A stretch of DNA of 64,000 nt from Henriciella sp. Its GTDB lineage: Bacteria; Pseudomonadota; Alphaproteobacteria; Caulobacterales; Hyphomonadaceae. Below the pieces are notes generated by a model. The model was not told the origin of the DNA, made no database searches, and saw nothing but the letters and a program-made list of their open reading frames with translations. Below, in pieces: positions 39,732-57,925 of this stretch. Position 1 is the stretch's first letter. Each line of letters starts with the position of its first letter. The stretch covers positions 124,001-188,000 of the forward strand of contig JABSPZ010000007.1 of assembly GCA_013213785.1 (NCBI GenBank), given 5' to 3'. The position numbers and the translations under genes were made by a program.

Positions 39732-40301
39732 CTAAGCCGCGTTCGCAAAAGCCTGGATGCGATTGAGCGCTTCATGGAGCTGCTCAATCGGGGAGGATGA
39801 CTGGGTCCGTTTATCGTCGAACCATTGGTCTGAATAGAATTTGCCGAGCGCCATTTCGCGGGCGCGACTGACGCGGCTTTTCACTGTGCCCTCCGAGCAT
39901 CCAAGAACATCGGCAGCCTCTTGATAGGTAAATCCAGCGGCCGCTACGAGCAGAAAGGCATCGCGCTGCGCGTGCTTGAGTGACTGGATCGCTTGCAACA
40001 TGCGGCTGAGTTCTGATCGCTGCTGCAACCCGCACTCAGCGACGAGATGGATCTCAACCGACGCCGCCGGGTCGCTCTCTCGCACCTGATCCGCCCGCTT
40101 TTGCTGATAGAATTCATTGCGAACAATACGAAACAACCAGGCACGTAGGACGCCTTTTTTAGGGTCAAAAGCATTCCGGTTTTCCCACGCTTTAAGACAG
40201 GCATTCTGAACGATATCATCCGCCCGGACGACATCCCCGCAAAGAACTCGAGCATAGGCGCGAAGCTGCGGCAGGTGTTTTTCTAGCTCTTCGGAAAACA
40301 T
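39732..40301 (-). CDS. EcfG-like ECF sigma factor (copy 1)
   Basis: 189 residues. The sigma2 region is DDIVQNACLKAWENRNAFDPKKGVLRAWLFRIVRNEFY, sigma4 is LLVAAAGFTYQEAADVLGCSEGTVKSRVSRAREM, close to the EcfG/SigT family that drives the alphaproteobacterial general stress response. A second, divergent copy follows at 40650, about half identical by eye. No anti-sigma gene is adjacent. Short C-terminal tail (SPIEQLHEALNRIQAF). Confidence 0.88.
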   Translation of the reverse strand: MFSEELEKHLPQLRAYARVLCGDVVRADDIVQNACLKAWENRNAFDPKKGVLRAWLFRIVRNEFYQQKRADQVRESDPAASVEIHLVAECGLQQRSELSRMLQAIQSLKHAQRDAFLLVAAAGFTYQEAADVLGCSEGTVKSRVSRAREMALGKFYSDQWFDDKRTQSSSPIEQLHEALNRIQAFANAA

Positions 40302-40559
40302 CGCGAATTCTCTTTGTTTCTACTCACGATAGTTTCCGTTAGCTAATACTTAGTTTCTAAAACTTGCCATCCTTTGCGGTCTTTCGTGTCTTCAAACGAA
40401 GTGTCTCGGAGACGTTCAATGTGATCGCCGAGCTCCTGAGATAGAATATTTTGTCATAATATCAGCCTGTTAGGACGGATCAAAGCTCACCCCTCAAGTA
40501 TGGGAAATATTTGTTGAACGCGAAAACGCCAGAATAGAAAGTTTCACTTGAAAGAATTT

Positions 40560-40584
40560 GGAATGACCGATCGGTTTCTAAGTT
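40560..40584 (+). promoter_or_regulatory. possible EcfG-type promoter for the second sigma gene
   Basis: GGAAT - N16 - AGTT, close to the EcfG consensus GGAAC-N16/17-CGTT, about 65 bases before the ATG at 40650. It would make the gene autoregulated. Low certainty because the -10 differs by one base. Confidence 0.35.
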
Positions 40585-40649
40585 ATTAACACTATTTACG
40601 TTTAATTAACCAACGCCACGGACACCTTGGATCAACGAGGGGCCGTTAC

Positions 40650-41222
40650 ATGTTTGCTGATGAACTTGAAAAACTCCTGCCAGAAATTCGCGCCTACGCA
40701 CGTATGTTGTGCGTGGATCGGGACCTGGCGGACGACATCGTCCAGAATGCCTGTCTGAAAGCTTGGAAAGCCCAAGACAGCTTTGACCCGAACAAAGGGT
40801 CGCTAAAAGCCTGGGTGTTCGTGATCACACGGAATGAGTTTCTTCAACATATCCGAAAAAACAAACGTATGGACGTCCACGCGCCGACAGATTTCGAGAA
40901 TTGGCTCACTCAAGACTGTCAAATGTCGACGCGCGCAGCCTGTTCTGACGCGATCAAAGAACTGTTTGCGCTAAACCCAGATCAACGCGATGTGTTTATT
41001 CTCGTTGTTGCCGCTGGATACTCCTACGAAGAAGCAGCGAGCATTCTGAACTGTTCGGTCGGAACTGTAAAAAGCCGGATCAACCGCTCTCGCGAGAAGC
41101 TTCAAGCGCGTCTCGTCTCGCCTGAGGAAGACTCAGACTTTGAGACCGATGACTCGATCACTTTTCTAGGCATGCAGGACGTTTTCGGGCGGGTAGATGC
41201 CTTGGTGCAGCCGGCGGCATAG
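40650..41222 (+). CDS. EcfG-like ECF sigma factor (copy 2)
   Basis: 190 residues. Sigma2 part DLADDIVQNACLKAWKAQDSFDPNKGSLKAWVFVITRNEFLQ and sigma4 part ILVVAAGYSYEEAASILNCSVGTVKSRINRSREKLQ, same family as copy 1, divergent from it. GAGGGG lies 8 bases before ATG. The 348-base gap between the two genes holds no ORF I can support but does hold promoter-like sequences. The small NepR at 51.5 kb would be the expected anti-sigma partner. Confidence 0.88.
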   Translation: MFADELEKLLPEIRAYARMLCVDRDLADDIVQNACLKAWKAQDSFDPNKGSLKAWVFVITRNEFLQHIRKNKRMDVHAPTDFENWLTQDCQMSTRAACSDAIKELFALNPDQRDVFILVVAAGYSYEEAASILNCSVGTVKSRINRSREKLQARLVSPEEDSDFETDDSITFLGMQDVFGRVDALVQPAA

Positions 41223-41273
41223 CCCCCGAGTGCCGACAGAATGTTGCAGATTGAAACTTTTTTGAAAAATTTT

Positions 41274-41299
41274 GGAACGATTTCAGTTTCTGAGACGTA
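41274..41299 (+). promoter_or_regulatory. EcfG-type promoter GGAAC-N17-CGTA
   Basis: GGAAC at 41274-41278, 17 bases, then CGTA at 41296-41299, matching the alphaproteobacterial general stress sigma consensus at 8 of 9 positions. It lies 50 bases after the second sigma gene and points to the small RNA candidate rather than a protein gene. Confidence 0.6.
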
Positions 41300-41304
41300 G
41301 AGAC

Positions 41305-41373
41305 TATGGAAACGCCCGTTTCCTAATCTCCATTATGACCTAACCCGCGCCCTCCCGGCGCGGGTTTCTTTTT
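41305..41373 (+). ncRNA. candidate stress-controlled small RNA
   Basis: From the expected start at about 41305 the segment forms one small hairpin, GGAAAC-GCCC-GTTTCC (41308-41323), then a short linker, then a strong intrinsic terminator CCCGCGCC-CTCCC-GGCGCGGG followed by TTTCTTTTT (41344-41373). So a 65-70 nt RNA with its own GGAAC-N17-CGTA promoter. No ORF fits. Caulobacter has a sigma-T-driven small RNA, GsrN, by analogy only; no sequence match is claimed. Confidence 0.5.
41344..41373 (+). terminator. intrinsic terminator after the second sigma gene / small RNA
   Basis: Stem CCCGCGCC / GGCGCGGG, loop CTCCC, then TTTCTTTTT. Can end both the sigma transcript and the small RNA. Confidence 0.88.
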
Positions 41374-41429
41374 GGAGTTTCCGGCCAACGGCTGCGTTCT
41401 CTGCACAAAATTTTTGCGATGCGAGGAAT

Positions 41430-41443
41430 GTAAACTTTTTTAC
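41430..41443. promoter_or_regulatory. inverted repeat GTAAAC-N3-TTTAC, copy 1
   Basis: GTAAAC TTT TTTAC, extended to TGTAAA-CTTT-TTTACA at 41429-41444. It lies 62 bases before the diguanylate cyclase ATG. Same pattern as copies at 47342 and 52692. Confidence 0.6.
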
Positions 41444-41505
41444 AATCACTACTAGAATATAAGGGAATACACCTACAAAAAAATAATACCCCGGAGAGAG
41501 AGCCC

Positions 41506-42609
41506 ATGATTTCGTATCCACCGCCAAAGTTCGAAGAACAAAAGTCGGAAATTATGCAACGGTACCAGATCCTCTATGATGATCATGCCGTCAGTGCGAA
41601 GTCGTTCGCTGACTCAGTCGCCCTCGCTCTGGACACCCCCTTCGTTATGGTCGCGCTAACCAACCGTTACCGCACTTGGTATCATTGCGCGCACGGACTC
41701 GGCGCTTACCCAGAAGAAGACTTGCAGACTTATTTCGCCCGGATGCATTTGGCGCAGACGCGATTTGAAGTTGCGGATATTACCCAAGAAGAATTTTTCT
41801 TGAGCCATACCGCCGGATTGCAAATGCCGAAGTTCCAATCTTTGGCCGGCGTGCCGTTGACGGATCCGAACGGCAAACGCTTCGGCACTCTGTGTATTGG
41901 CGACCGGAAAACCCGTCAGTTGTCGGAAAATGAGCTCAATATTCTGTCGAGCTTTGGACGCCTGATTAGCAATGATATTTGCGTTAAGAGCGCGGCACGC
42001 TACGCAGTCCGCGATCTGATCGAACTCGAGAATGAAAAATGCGATCTGTTCGAGCTCGCGACGATCGATCCGCTTACAAAAGCGCTCAACCGGCGCGCCT
42101 TTATGCGCTTCTCAGAGCGTGAACTGGCGCGCTTCAAGCGCGACAATGCAAGACTGTCGACCTTGATGCTCGACATCGACCATTTCAAACAGGTCAACGA
42201 TGTTCACGGCCACGCAACTGGCGACAAAGTTCTATCCAAAATGGTTGCGATTGCGTCGAACGTCCTGCGCAAGGAAGACTTGATTGGCCGACTAGGCGGT
42301 GAAGAGTTTGCGATTGTTCTGGTTGATTCCGATGCCATGTCCGCCGCGAAAGTGGCCGATCGCATTCGCCAAGCCATCAAGCAGGTCAAATTCCCAAGCG
42401 AGACAGGCCCGTTCAACGTGTCGGTCAGCATCGGGGTCGCAGAGCCTCTGTTTAATGAAGCCAGCGTCAACGACTCGCTCGAACGTGCAGACGCCGCGCT
42501 CTATAACGCGAAACGCAATGGCCGCGACCGGGTTGAGATTGCTGCAGAGAACGTATCGCCGCACGGACATGCCGTGTCAGCCGGCGCTTCAACCAACCTA
42601 CCGAACTAA
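41506..42609 (+). CDS. GAF-GGDEF diguanylate cyclase
   Basis: 367 residues. A GAF-type sensor domain fills residues ~25-170 (SLAGVPLTDPNGKRFGTLCIGD), then a helix, then a GGDEF domain with GGEEF at 265-269. The autoinhibition site R-x-x-D is present just ahead, in RKEDLIGRL. So an active, product-controlled c-di-GMP synthase is predicted, soluble and cytoplasmic. The ATG has GGAGAGAG upstream. The inverted repeat at 41430 is upstream of it. c-di-GMP links it with the motility genes at 52-64 kb, by inference only. Confidence 0.92.
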   Translation: MISYPPPKFEEQKSEIMQRYQILYDDHAVSAKSFADSVALALDTPFVMVALTNRYRTWYHCAHGLGAYPEEDLQTYFARMHLAQTRFEVADITQEEFFLSHTAGLQMPKFQSLAGVPLTDPNGKRFGTLCIGDRKTRQLSENELNILSSFGRLISNDICVKSAARYAVRDLIELENEKCDLFELATIDPLTKALNRRAFMRFSERELARFKRDNARLSTLMLDIDHFKQVNDVHGHATGDKVLSKMVAIASNVLRKEDLIGRLGGEEFAIVLVDSDAMSAAKVADRIRQAIKQVKFPSETGPFNVSVSIGVAEPLFNEASVNDSLERADAALYNAKRNGRDRVEIAAENVSPHGHAVSAGASTNLPN

Positions 42610-57538: not shown

Positions 57539-57925
57539 TTATCGACGTAGCACATCCAGCAGCGAGGTGTACATGCTCCGCGCTTGCTGGAAGGAATTTA
57601 GGTTGGCTTCATAGGTTCGGTTGGCTTCACGCATGTCCGCCATTTCCGTCACCAAAGAGACGTTTGAGAGCGTGATATAGCCCTGATCATCCGCCATTGG
57701 GTGGGATGGGCTATATTCTTGCTCGCCGGGTGTTTGATCGAGCGACGTGCGCAGCGCCCCGAATGAAACGTCACCCGTCGTCCCGCGCGGATCGGTCAAC
57801 AATATTTTGCGCTGATACCCGGGCGTATCGACATTGGACACGTTTTCCGCGCTCACCGTAATGCGCTGAGAGTTCTGCCGCATTCCGGAGACGGCTTGCA
57901 TCATCGAGAATTCAAATGGGTTCAT
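57539..57925 (-). CDS. flgC: flagellar rod protein FlgC
   Basis: 128 residues. N-terminal rod motif (NPFEFSMMQAVSGMRQNSQRITVSAENVSNVDTPGYQRK) and C-terminal coiled-coil (EMADMREANRTYEANLNSFQQARSM). Proximal rod protein. Confidence 0.94.
   Translation of the reverse strand: MNPFEFSMMQAVSGMRQNSQRITVSAENVSNVDTPGYQRKILLTDPRGTTGDVSFGALRTSLDQTPGEQEYSPSHPMADDQGYITLSNVSLVTEMADMREANRTYEANLNSFQQARSMYTSLLDVLRR

Follow-up and report, generated by a model that had tools for sequence, protein, structure and literature searches.

Does the short stretch of DNA between a sigma gene and a diguanylate cyclase-like gene in Henriciella sp. encode a small RNA and, if so, which sigma factor would make it and on what would it act? 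The segment in question, positions 41274-41373, lies in a window of 64,000 nucleotides (G000:C3:124001-188000, where G000 is the window's own genome, 3.36 Mb in 50 contigs), directly downstream of a gene for an extracytoplasmic function (ECF) sigma factor, here called sigma2. An earlier note, made from the letters of the window, had taken it for a small RNA gene behind a promoter of the general stress type. On the comparative evidence given below, the segment is very probably a real small RNA gene. We consider it probable that an ECF sigma makes the RNA, and hold to the same degree that the gene is a stand-alone one of this kind.

Conservation and anatomy of the candidate gene

The segment was compared across 29 genomes of the genus (Henriciella-type Hyphomonadaceae). 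A promoter-RNA-terminator unit was present in nine of them (G000, G002, G007, G010, G014, G015, G024, G026 and G028), yielding 36 genome pairs, and in all nine it lies between orthologous genes, with sigma2 upstream and a GAF-GGDEF gene downstream. The nine sequences align without gaps from the -35 element through the linker. Over the 36 pairs, GGAAC and CGTA were 100% identical and the 31-nt core of the RNA 97-100%; the promoter spacer averaged 56% (minimum 29%) with its length fixed at 17 nt. Mean identity was 60% from -60 to -33, 72% in the discriminator and 51% in the downstream DNA, and the fourfold sites of sigma2 averaged 40% (minimum 29%), with the sigma2 proteins 57-91% identical. Two invariant boxes at fixed spacing around a free spacer thus leave the footprint of a promoter, joined to a strictly constrained element. 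In the terminator, five of ten base pairs were altered on both sides and yet pair, and pairing is kept in every cell that has letters on both sides; none of 500 shuffles reached the covariation score, and eight of 500 matched the number of doubly changed pairs. These patterns support selection on the predicted promoter, RNA core and terminator. The earlier note had named conservation of promoter and hairpin among relatives as the comparison on which its candidate should stand or fall, and the candidate came through it, with -35, -10, core and terminator all conserved.

The same data bear on whether the segment is the 3' end of the sigma2 mRNA, that is, an ordinary terminator or perhaps a processed 3' untranslated region (UTR) fragment, with no promoter of its own. 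Sigma2 is directly upstream, a scan of 40500-42500 found no terminator between it and the segment, and the terminator at 41342-41373 would serve sigma2 too; indeed, it probably also ends the sigma2 mRNA. However, this explanation does not account for a -35/-10 pair held at fixed spacing in nine genomes, nor for a core that is better conserved than the terminator 3' of it, and in G014 promoter, core and terminator are still together behind about 500 nt of extra DNA that separates them from sigma2. We regard it as unlikely, and prefer a small RNA gene with its own promoter.

The GGAAC-N17-CGTA site, the hairpin GGAAAC-GCCC-GTTTCC and the strong terminator of the earlier note were all borne out at their positions. 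The RNA predicted from them is about 66-68 nt long in the window (~41306-41373) and consists of a 5' hairpin, an unpaired linker and an intrinsic terminator; the predicted fold of 41302-41373 has an energy of -26.9 kcal/mol (z -5.41, 200 shuffles). The linker AAUCUCCAUUAU is unpaired in all nine predicted folds, with a mean unpaired probability of 0.94-0.99. The hairpin loop GCCC is also exposed (unpaired probability 1.00) and invariant, but short, and the linker is equally invariant. Position 19 of the core, U or A, is its sole variable base, and it allows an extra hairpin pair in seven genomes and none in two. 

The never-varying hairpin could also be read at the level of the DNA: its palindrome, GGAAACGCCCGTTTCC, at +3 to +18, would be the operator of a repressor and the RNA would be incidental, since a 16-bp dyad whose arms span 7 bp fits a protein-binding site no less than an RNA stem. 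Such an operator leaves the equally invariant linker unexplained. Moreover, GGAAACNNNNGTTTCC was found solely at the RNA locus in four of the six genomes searched (G028 and G026 have two extra sites each, with differing centres), and the only other site in the window at up to three mismatches has three; an operator is accordingly judged improbable beside a small RNA gene.

The predicted RNA opens with ATG, starting a tiny frame, METPVS, that is followed by a stop in the window, so that the earlier note's statement that the segment has no open reading frame does not hold to the letter. Leaderless mRNAs occur in Alphaproteobacteria, and an invariant block that begins with ATG at the predicted start could mark a leaderless micro-protein gene. 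Yet in the nine genomes the frame runs to 6, 6, 10, 10, 26, 26, 26, 31 and 48 codons, and its shared 18 nt show no synonymous change across them, although the fourfold sites of sigma2 average the low identity given above. Varying length and absent synonymous change together indicate constraint on the nucleotides: METPVS is not conserved as a frame, and a micro-protein gene is highly improbable.

Finally, the segment might serve the GGDEF gene as a 5' leader, acting as an attenuator or RNA switch with the terminator as its regulated stop; that gene is next in nine of nine genomes, with 196-225 nt from RNA start to ATG. The DNA beyond the terminator, however, averages 51% identity, the two hairpins are predicted together in all nine genomes, and a second conserved element, TGTAAAC...TACA, precedes the GGDEF gene as if that gene had its own promoter region. 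A leader is, in our estimate, of low probability. Read from the letters, the segment instead shows its own promoter and terminator, a conserved core and no conserved open reading frame, as a stand-alone small RNA gene would.

Chance expectation adds less than conservation. The motif GGAAC-N17-CGTW occurs three times in the window against 0.68 expected (one of 100 shuffles reaches three), and terminator-like sites number two in the 2 kb from 40500 to 42500 against 3.0 expected in shuffles. Of 68 GGAAC-N16/17-CGTW sites in G000, 60 were fetched and 59 matched at their position and were examined; five had a terminator within 115 nt, two did not fall within an open frame of 120 codons, and both features coincided at the RNA site alone. 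This combination is unusual, not decisive. As judged from these counts, the promoter motif by itself is near chance, and the comparison across genomes carries the case.

Several points weigh against a sigma-driven small RNA. In the whole genome of G000 the motif occurs 38 times with CGTT and 30 times with CGTA, compared with 101 and 54 occurrences of the reversed pattern; matches to the GGAAC/CGTW consensus are thus not enriched and lend it no support from a regulon. The nine genomes amount to six distinct RNA sequences, several from close relatives. Further pair types, counted over the whole structure, did not exceed shuffles (359 of 500 reach the observed value), and since the 5' hairpin stem never varies it yields no covariation evidence, its pairing being predicted, not proved.

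Beyond these nine genomes the unit was not recovered. At the gathering threshold, Rfam gave no match; at E up to 10 (191 bases) there were 22 matches, all below gathering, the best being rli32 with 33.8 bits against 100. A pattern search allowing up to three mismatches in 398 genomes of the order (G026 not among them) matched eight genomes, all in this genus, and the exact pattern over the contig collection matched seven stretches, all from seven of the same nine genomes. A covariance model run with stricter filters on 105 genomes of the family gave 11 matches in ten genomes, namely the nine with the RNA and G025; the extra matches in G025 and G014 (34.9 and 30.6 bits) are weak and were read as plain terminators. 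BLAST of the segment over 61 genomes returned the nine of the genus, the window's own included, plus a tenth match in a genome of another genus, G059, which covers a terminator-like stretch only, about 370 kb from the best sigma match there. None of 35 loci scanned beside other sigma genes had a positional homologue with promoter and terminator, and a literature search, in which subscription journals were sparsely covered, found no paper on small RNAs of Henriciella, on small RNAs and sigma factors of Hyphomonas, or on small RNAs and transcription starts of Hyphomonadaceae. By these searches the RNA is a conserved small RNA candidate, of a known kind but not yet named.

Table 1. Coordinates in the window of the predicted features of the small RNA locus and of the adjacent genes.
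Feature	Position	Strand	Observation
A/T-rich stretch just 5' of -35, possible UP-like element	41258..41272	+	A/T-rich in nine aligned genomes
Promoter GGAACGATTTCAGTTTCTGAGACGTA	41274..41299	+	-35, 17-nt spacer and -10
-35 GGAAC, ECF type	41274..41278	+	identical in 36/36 genome pairs
-10 CGTA after 17-nt spacer	41296..41299	+	identical in 36/36 genome pairs; spacer length fixed
Predicted transcription start A, 7 nt past -10	41306	+	taken as first base of invariant block
31-nt RNA core	41306..41336	+	one variable base in nine genomes; 97-100% pairwise identity
5' hairpin GGAAAC-GCCC-GUUUCC	41308..41323	+	predicted fold; invariant
Linker, candidate seed with anti-Shine-Dalgarno UCUCC	41325..41336	+	invariant in nine genomes; seed role putative
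Intrinsic terminator (stem 41342-41366; U-tract TCTTTTT 41367-41373)	41342..41373	+	terminator scan; paired changes
sigma1, divergent ECF sigma gene	39732..40301	-	sigma domains; present in 9/9 RNA-bearing genomes
sigma2, ECF sigma gene, 5' of RNA	40650..41222	+	Sigma70_r2 and Sigma70_r4_2; orthologue 58-91% identical in the other eight genomes
GAF-GGDEF protein, putative diguanylate cyclase, 3' of RNA	41506..42609	+	domain match; downstream of RNA in 9/9

The sigma pair and its genomic setting

Sigma1 and sigma2 stand back to back and encode proteins that are 44% identical. The promoter begins about 50 nt past sigma2, followed by hairpin, linker and terminator and then, at 41506, by the GAF-GGDEF gene. 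Both proteins score above the Pfam cut-off for Sigma70_r2, Sigma70_r4_2 and PhyR_sigma2 and, by these domains, are ECF sigmas of an EcfG-like type, ECF domains 2 and 4 having been recognised with domain profiles. An inverted repeat, TGTAAA-CTTT-TTTACA, lies at 41429-41444, past the RNA terminator and before the GGDEF gene; its TGTAAAC and the following TACA are kept in nine genomes and resemble an operator or the promoter region of the GGDEF gene.

RNA and sigma pair occur together. All nine RNA genomes have a sigma2 orthologue and sigma1, and in the other 20 genomes of the genus there is no RNA and sigma2 identity is at most 46% among the matches listed. In 14 of those 20, PhyR was found above its family cut-off, each time with a sigma match within about 1 kb (gene order was read in one, as PhyR, NepR and EcfG-like; the region before phyR was aligned in all 14). 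In the nine RNA genomes the canonical PhyR-EcfG locus was not found, PhyR-like matches there falling only below the family cut-off, and the remaining six genomes had neither PhyR above the cut-off nor the RNA. As these searches sort it, the genus is split 14 (PhyR-EcfG), nine (sigma pair plus RNA, with a diverged PhyR) and six (neither), a natural instance of a general stress response rewired or lost. Because RNA and sigma pair mark the same nine genomes, in which the canonical locus was not found, the pair would be the natural candidate for the stress sigma, and on balance we lean, if only somewhat, towards this pair as the source of the RNA.

The PhyR-like protein of G000 (242 aa, with PhyR_sigma2, PhyR_sigma-like and receiver domains) is encoded beside a PAS-HWE kinase on contig C6, and the sigma pair is on C3, away from nepR and phyR. 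A NepR-like motif was found in short frames next to the PhyR-like gene at six of nine loci; Pfam NepR reached its cut-off in four of the six frames (in one with no margin), below it in G028, and was absent in G000. The NepR-like frame of G000 (L137:2290-2463, contig C6) has 58 codons from stop to stop and a deviant end after a run of A; its shortening may be a real change or an assembly error.

Two results count against the proposed sigma-driven RNA. The -10 element is CGTA in nine of nine genomes and not the published CGTT (the motif of EcfG1 of Rhizobium etli reads GGAAC-N16-CGTT; PMC3892343), and the interval 40302-40649, before sigma1 and sigma2, has no GGAAC-N15-18-CGTW site. Upstream of sigma1 there is a different conserved block, GAAAC and then TTAG on the sigma1 strand, and two genomes have a GGAAC-N15-18-CGTW site inside sigma1. 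The general-stress promoter proposed in the earlier note is best called plausible: the neighbouring sigmas are ECF and EcfG-like, but the -10 sequence and the location of the PhyR-like gene on another contig of G000 do not fit so well. R. etli EcfG2 is a precedent for extra EcfG-like sigma genes away from phyR and nepR (PMC3892343). In the RNA genomes, by contrast, the two genes diverge from each other, and no canonical locus was found.

Candidate targets of the linker

Two patterns for sites complementary to the linker, placed before a start codon, were searched. The first, ATGGRGATTTN{3,10}ATG, gave 26 matches in seven of the nine genomes (none in G000 or G002; reversed control, 0), among which sigma1 (five genomes), a FlgB-like gene (four), an ExbD gene (four) and one further pair recurred; the FlgB-like gene was named by eye, Pfam giving no match. 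The second, ATGGRGATTN{3,11}ATG, was applied to G000, G026, G002 and G014 and gave 28 matches (reversed control, 1). Those before frames of at least 60 codons include ExbD, in both G000 and G002, and also a protein of 501 aa seen in G000 and G014. The gene of this 501-aa protein (L250 and L238, from 1514) carries ATGGAGATTGAGC just 5' of its start in both genomes and had no Pfam match (L250 tested); it may be a second target of the linker.

As judged by predicted pairing, the ribosome-binding site of exbD is the best target lead. The gene (Pfam ExbD), whose product serves the energy supply of outer-membrane uptake, follows a MotA/ExbB gene, and its ribosome-binding site, AUGGAGAUU, lies in the coding end of this ExbB-like gene. 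The site is present in six genomes from both lineages (G028, G007, G024, G015, G000 and G002), with linker-exbD energies of -14.3 kcal/mol in four, -15.1 in G002 and -16.9 in G000. No sampled gene paired as well as exbD in its own genome, neither among 337 in G028 (best -14.0) nor among 403 in G000 (best -14.3), and one of 1000 permuted linkers equalled the real linker on the six exbD sites.

Lower in rank, and likewise on predicted energies (kcal/mol), three leads are lineage-specific: sigma1 is one in five closely related genomes, flgB in four, and the GGDEF gene in just two, G002 and G014. Linker-sigma1 pairing ranged from -11.4 to -12.3 in the five, with -8.8 in G014 and -4.1 in G000, G026 and G002; linker-flgB pairing was -11.4 in four, -9.7 in G002 and -4.9 to -6.3 in the other four (G000, -4.9). 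For the GGDEF gene the energy was -15.0 in G002, -17.1 in G014 and -7.8 to -8.8 in the other seven, the -8.6 of G000 being ordinary, and for sigma2 it was -12.7 in G014 only and -4.9 to -6.4 elsewhere. In the G028 background, eight of 337 genes reach -11.4, placing sigma1 and flgB merely within the top 2-3%, and with 45 nt of the RNA 55 genes do as well as sigma1. The background of G000 (403 genes) has a mean of -6.9 and a standard deviation of 2.4, with a FlgC-like gene at -12.9 and an FlbT-like gene at -12.6. The window has a flagellar block at 57925, 58296 and 60972 (-), some 17-20 kb away from the RNA, in which Pfam recognised FlgC-like and FlbT genes and a FlgB-like gene was named by eye; flgB lies at a like distance in G028, G015, G024 and G002.

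Against an action through the linker stand the following results: (i) exbD came from genome-wide pattern searches and was thus chosen after the fact; (ii) its site was not found in G026, G010 and G014, which are 84, 87 and 93% complete, loss and missing sequence being indistinguishable there; (iii) with 45 nt of the RNA in place of the linker, 61 of the 337 G028 genes do as well as exbD; (iv) the exbD site owes part of its conservation to the Shine-Dalgarno sequence and the coding frame, and of some 37 other non-Met codons upstream of it, five are likewise constant across the six genomes; (v) in a regional orthologue test, which covered 23 gene groups but not ExbD, the real linker was equalled by 17 of 60 permuted ones; and (vi) besides exbD, recurrence in both lineages was limited to one gene (G000 and G014). 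The exact 11-mer complement matched 15 times, nine of these being the RNA itself, and among the other six only the G028/G007 pair is the same locus. Set against the exbD results, this leaves us slightly inclined to think that the RNA acts through its linker on ribosome-binding sites.

A proposed mechanism and related systems

For this locus we infer transcription itself, the identity of the sigma, control by stress, the linker as seed and repression as the outcome, and combine them as follows. An ECF sigma, most likely one of the adjacent EcfG-like pair below the PhyR and HWE-kinase system, would recognise GGAAC-N17-CGTA when the stress system is on, giving a transcript that starts near 41306, ends at the terminator and measures about 66-68 nt. 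The 5' and terminator hairpins would flank the exposed, invariant AAUCUCCAUUAU, whose UCUCC would most likely compete for the GGAGA-type (AUGGAGAUU-like) Shine-Dalgarno regions of a few mRNAs, with exbD as the best lead, and pairing would lower translation of the targets under stress. In its boldest form, which we think quite unlikely to hold as a whole, the divergent sigma pair with its built-in RNA would replace the lost PhyR-EcfG locus; one sigma would make the RNA, whose linker would shut the ribosome-binding site of exbD and, depending on the lineage, also that of flgB, of the GGDEF gene or of the other sigma in the pair. Sigma pair, RNA and GGDEF gene would then work as a single compact switch that, under stress, selects among uptake, swimming and a sessile life.

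The alphaproteobacterial general stress response works partly through small RNAs. A sigma-linked RNA in Hyphomonadaceae without the canonical locus, if true, would mean that the RNA arm persists or re-arises when the circuit is rewired, and the locus offers an exactly defined RNA and promoter for testing, along with a first target site.

Among RNAs of other sigma factors, the RpoE-dependent MicA, RybB and MicL of Escherichia coli are alike in that small RNAs from sigma-dependent promoters carry the repressing arm of an ECF response (PMC8103513). No sequence relation to the present RNA was seen (no Rfam match). Their genes are not known to lie between a sigma pair and a GGDEF gene. UdsC of Rhodobacter sphaeroides is an alphaproteobacterial small RNA that is reported to bind the 5' UTR of the sigma mRNA rpoHII and to affect motility, offering a precedent for the sigma1 and flgB leads; it comes from the 3' UTR of an mRNA, whereas the RNA described here has a conserved promoter (PMC9779115).

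GsrN of Caulobacter crescentus, which the earlier note had fairly cited as an analogue in type with no claim of a sequence match, is likewise a small RNA with a terminator; it has an EcfG-type promoter and exposed, C-containing pairing segments (PMC5869019), to which the promoter and the exposed segments predicted here may correspond in type. The same paper reports GsrN homologues, found by sequence, only in Caulobacteraceae, and places the predicted ones typically near ecfG, nepR or phyR; here the gene adjoins a sigma pair unlinked to phyR (on another contig in G000). GsrN is about 106 nt long by that paper's deletion numbering, against about 67 nt here, and the present RNA has a loop of only GCCC, its invariant exposed segment being the UCUCC linker. 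Its promoter keeps GGAAC and the 17-nt spacing in nine of nine genomes, with CGTA rather than CGTT at -10. Compared by description, and with no homology claimed, GsrN would be the known small RNA nearest in kind.
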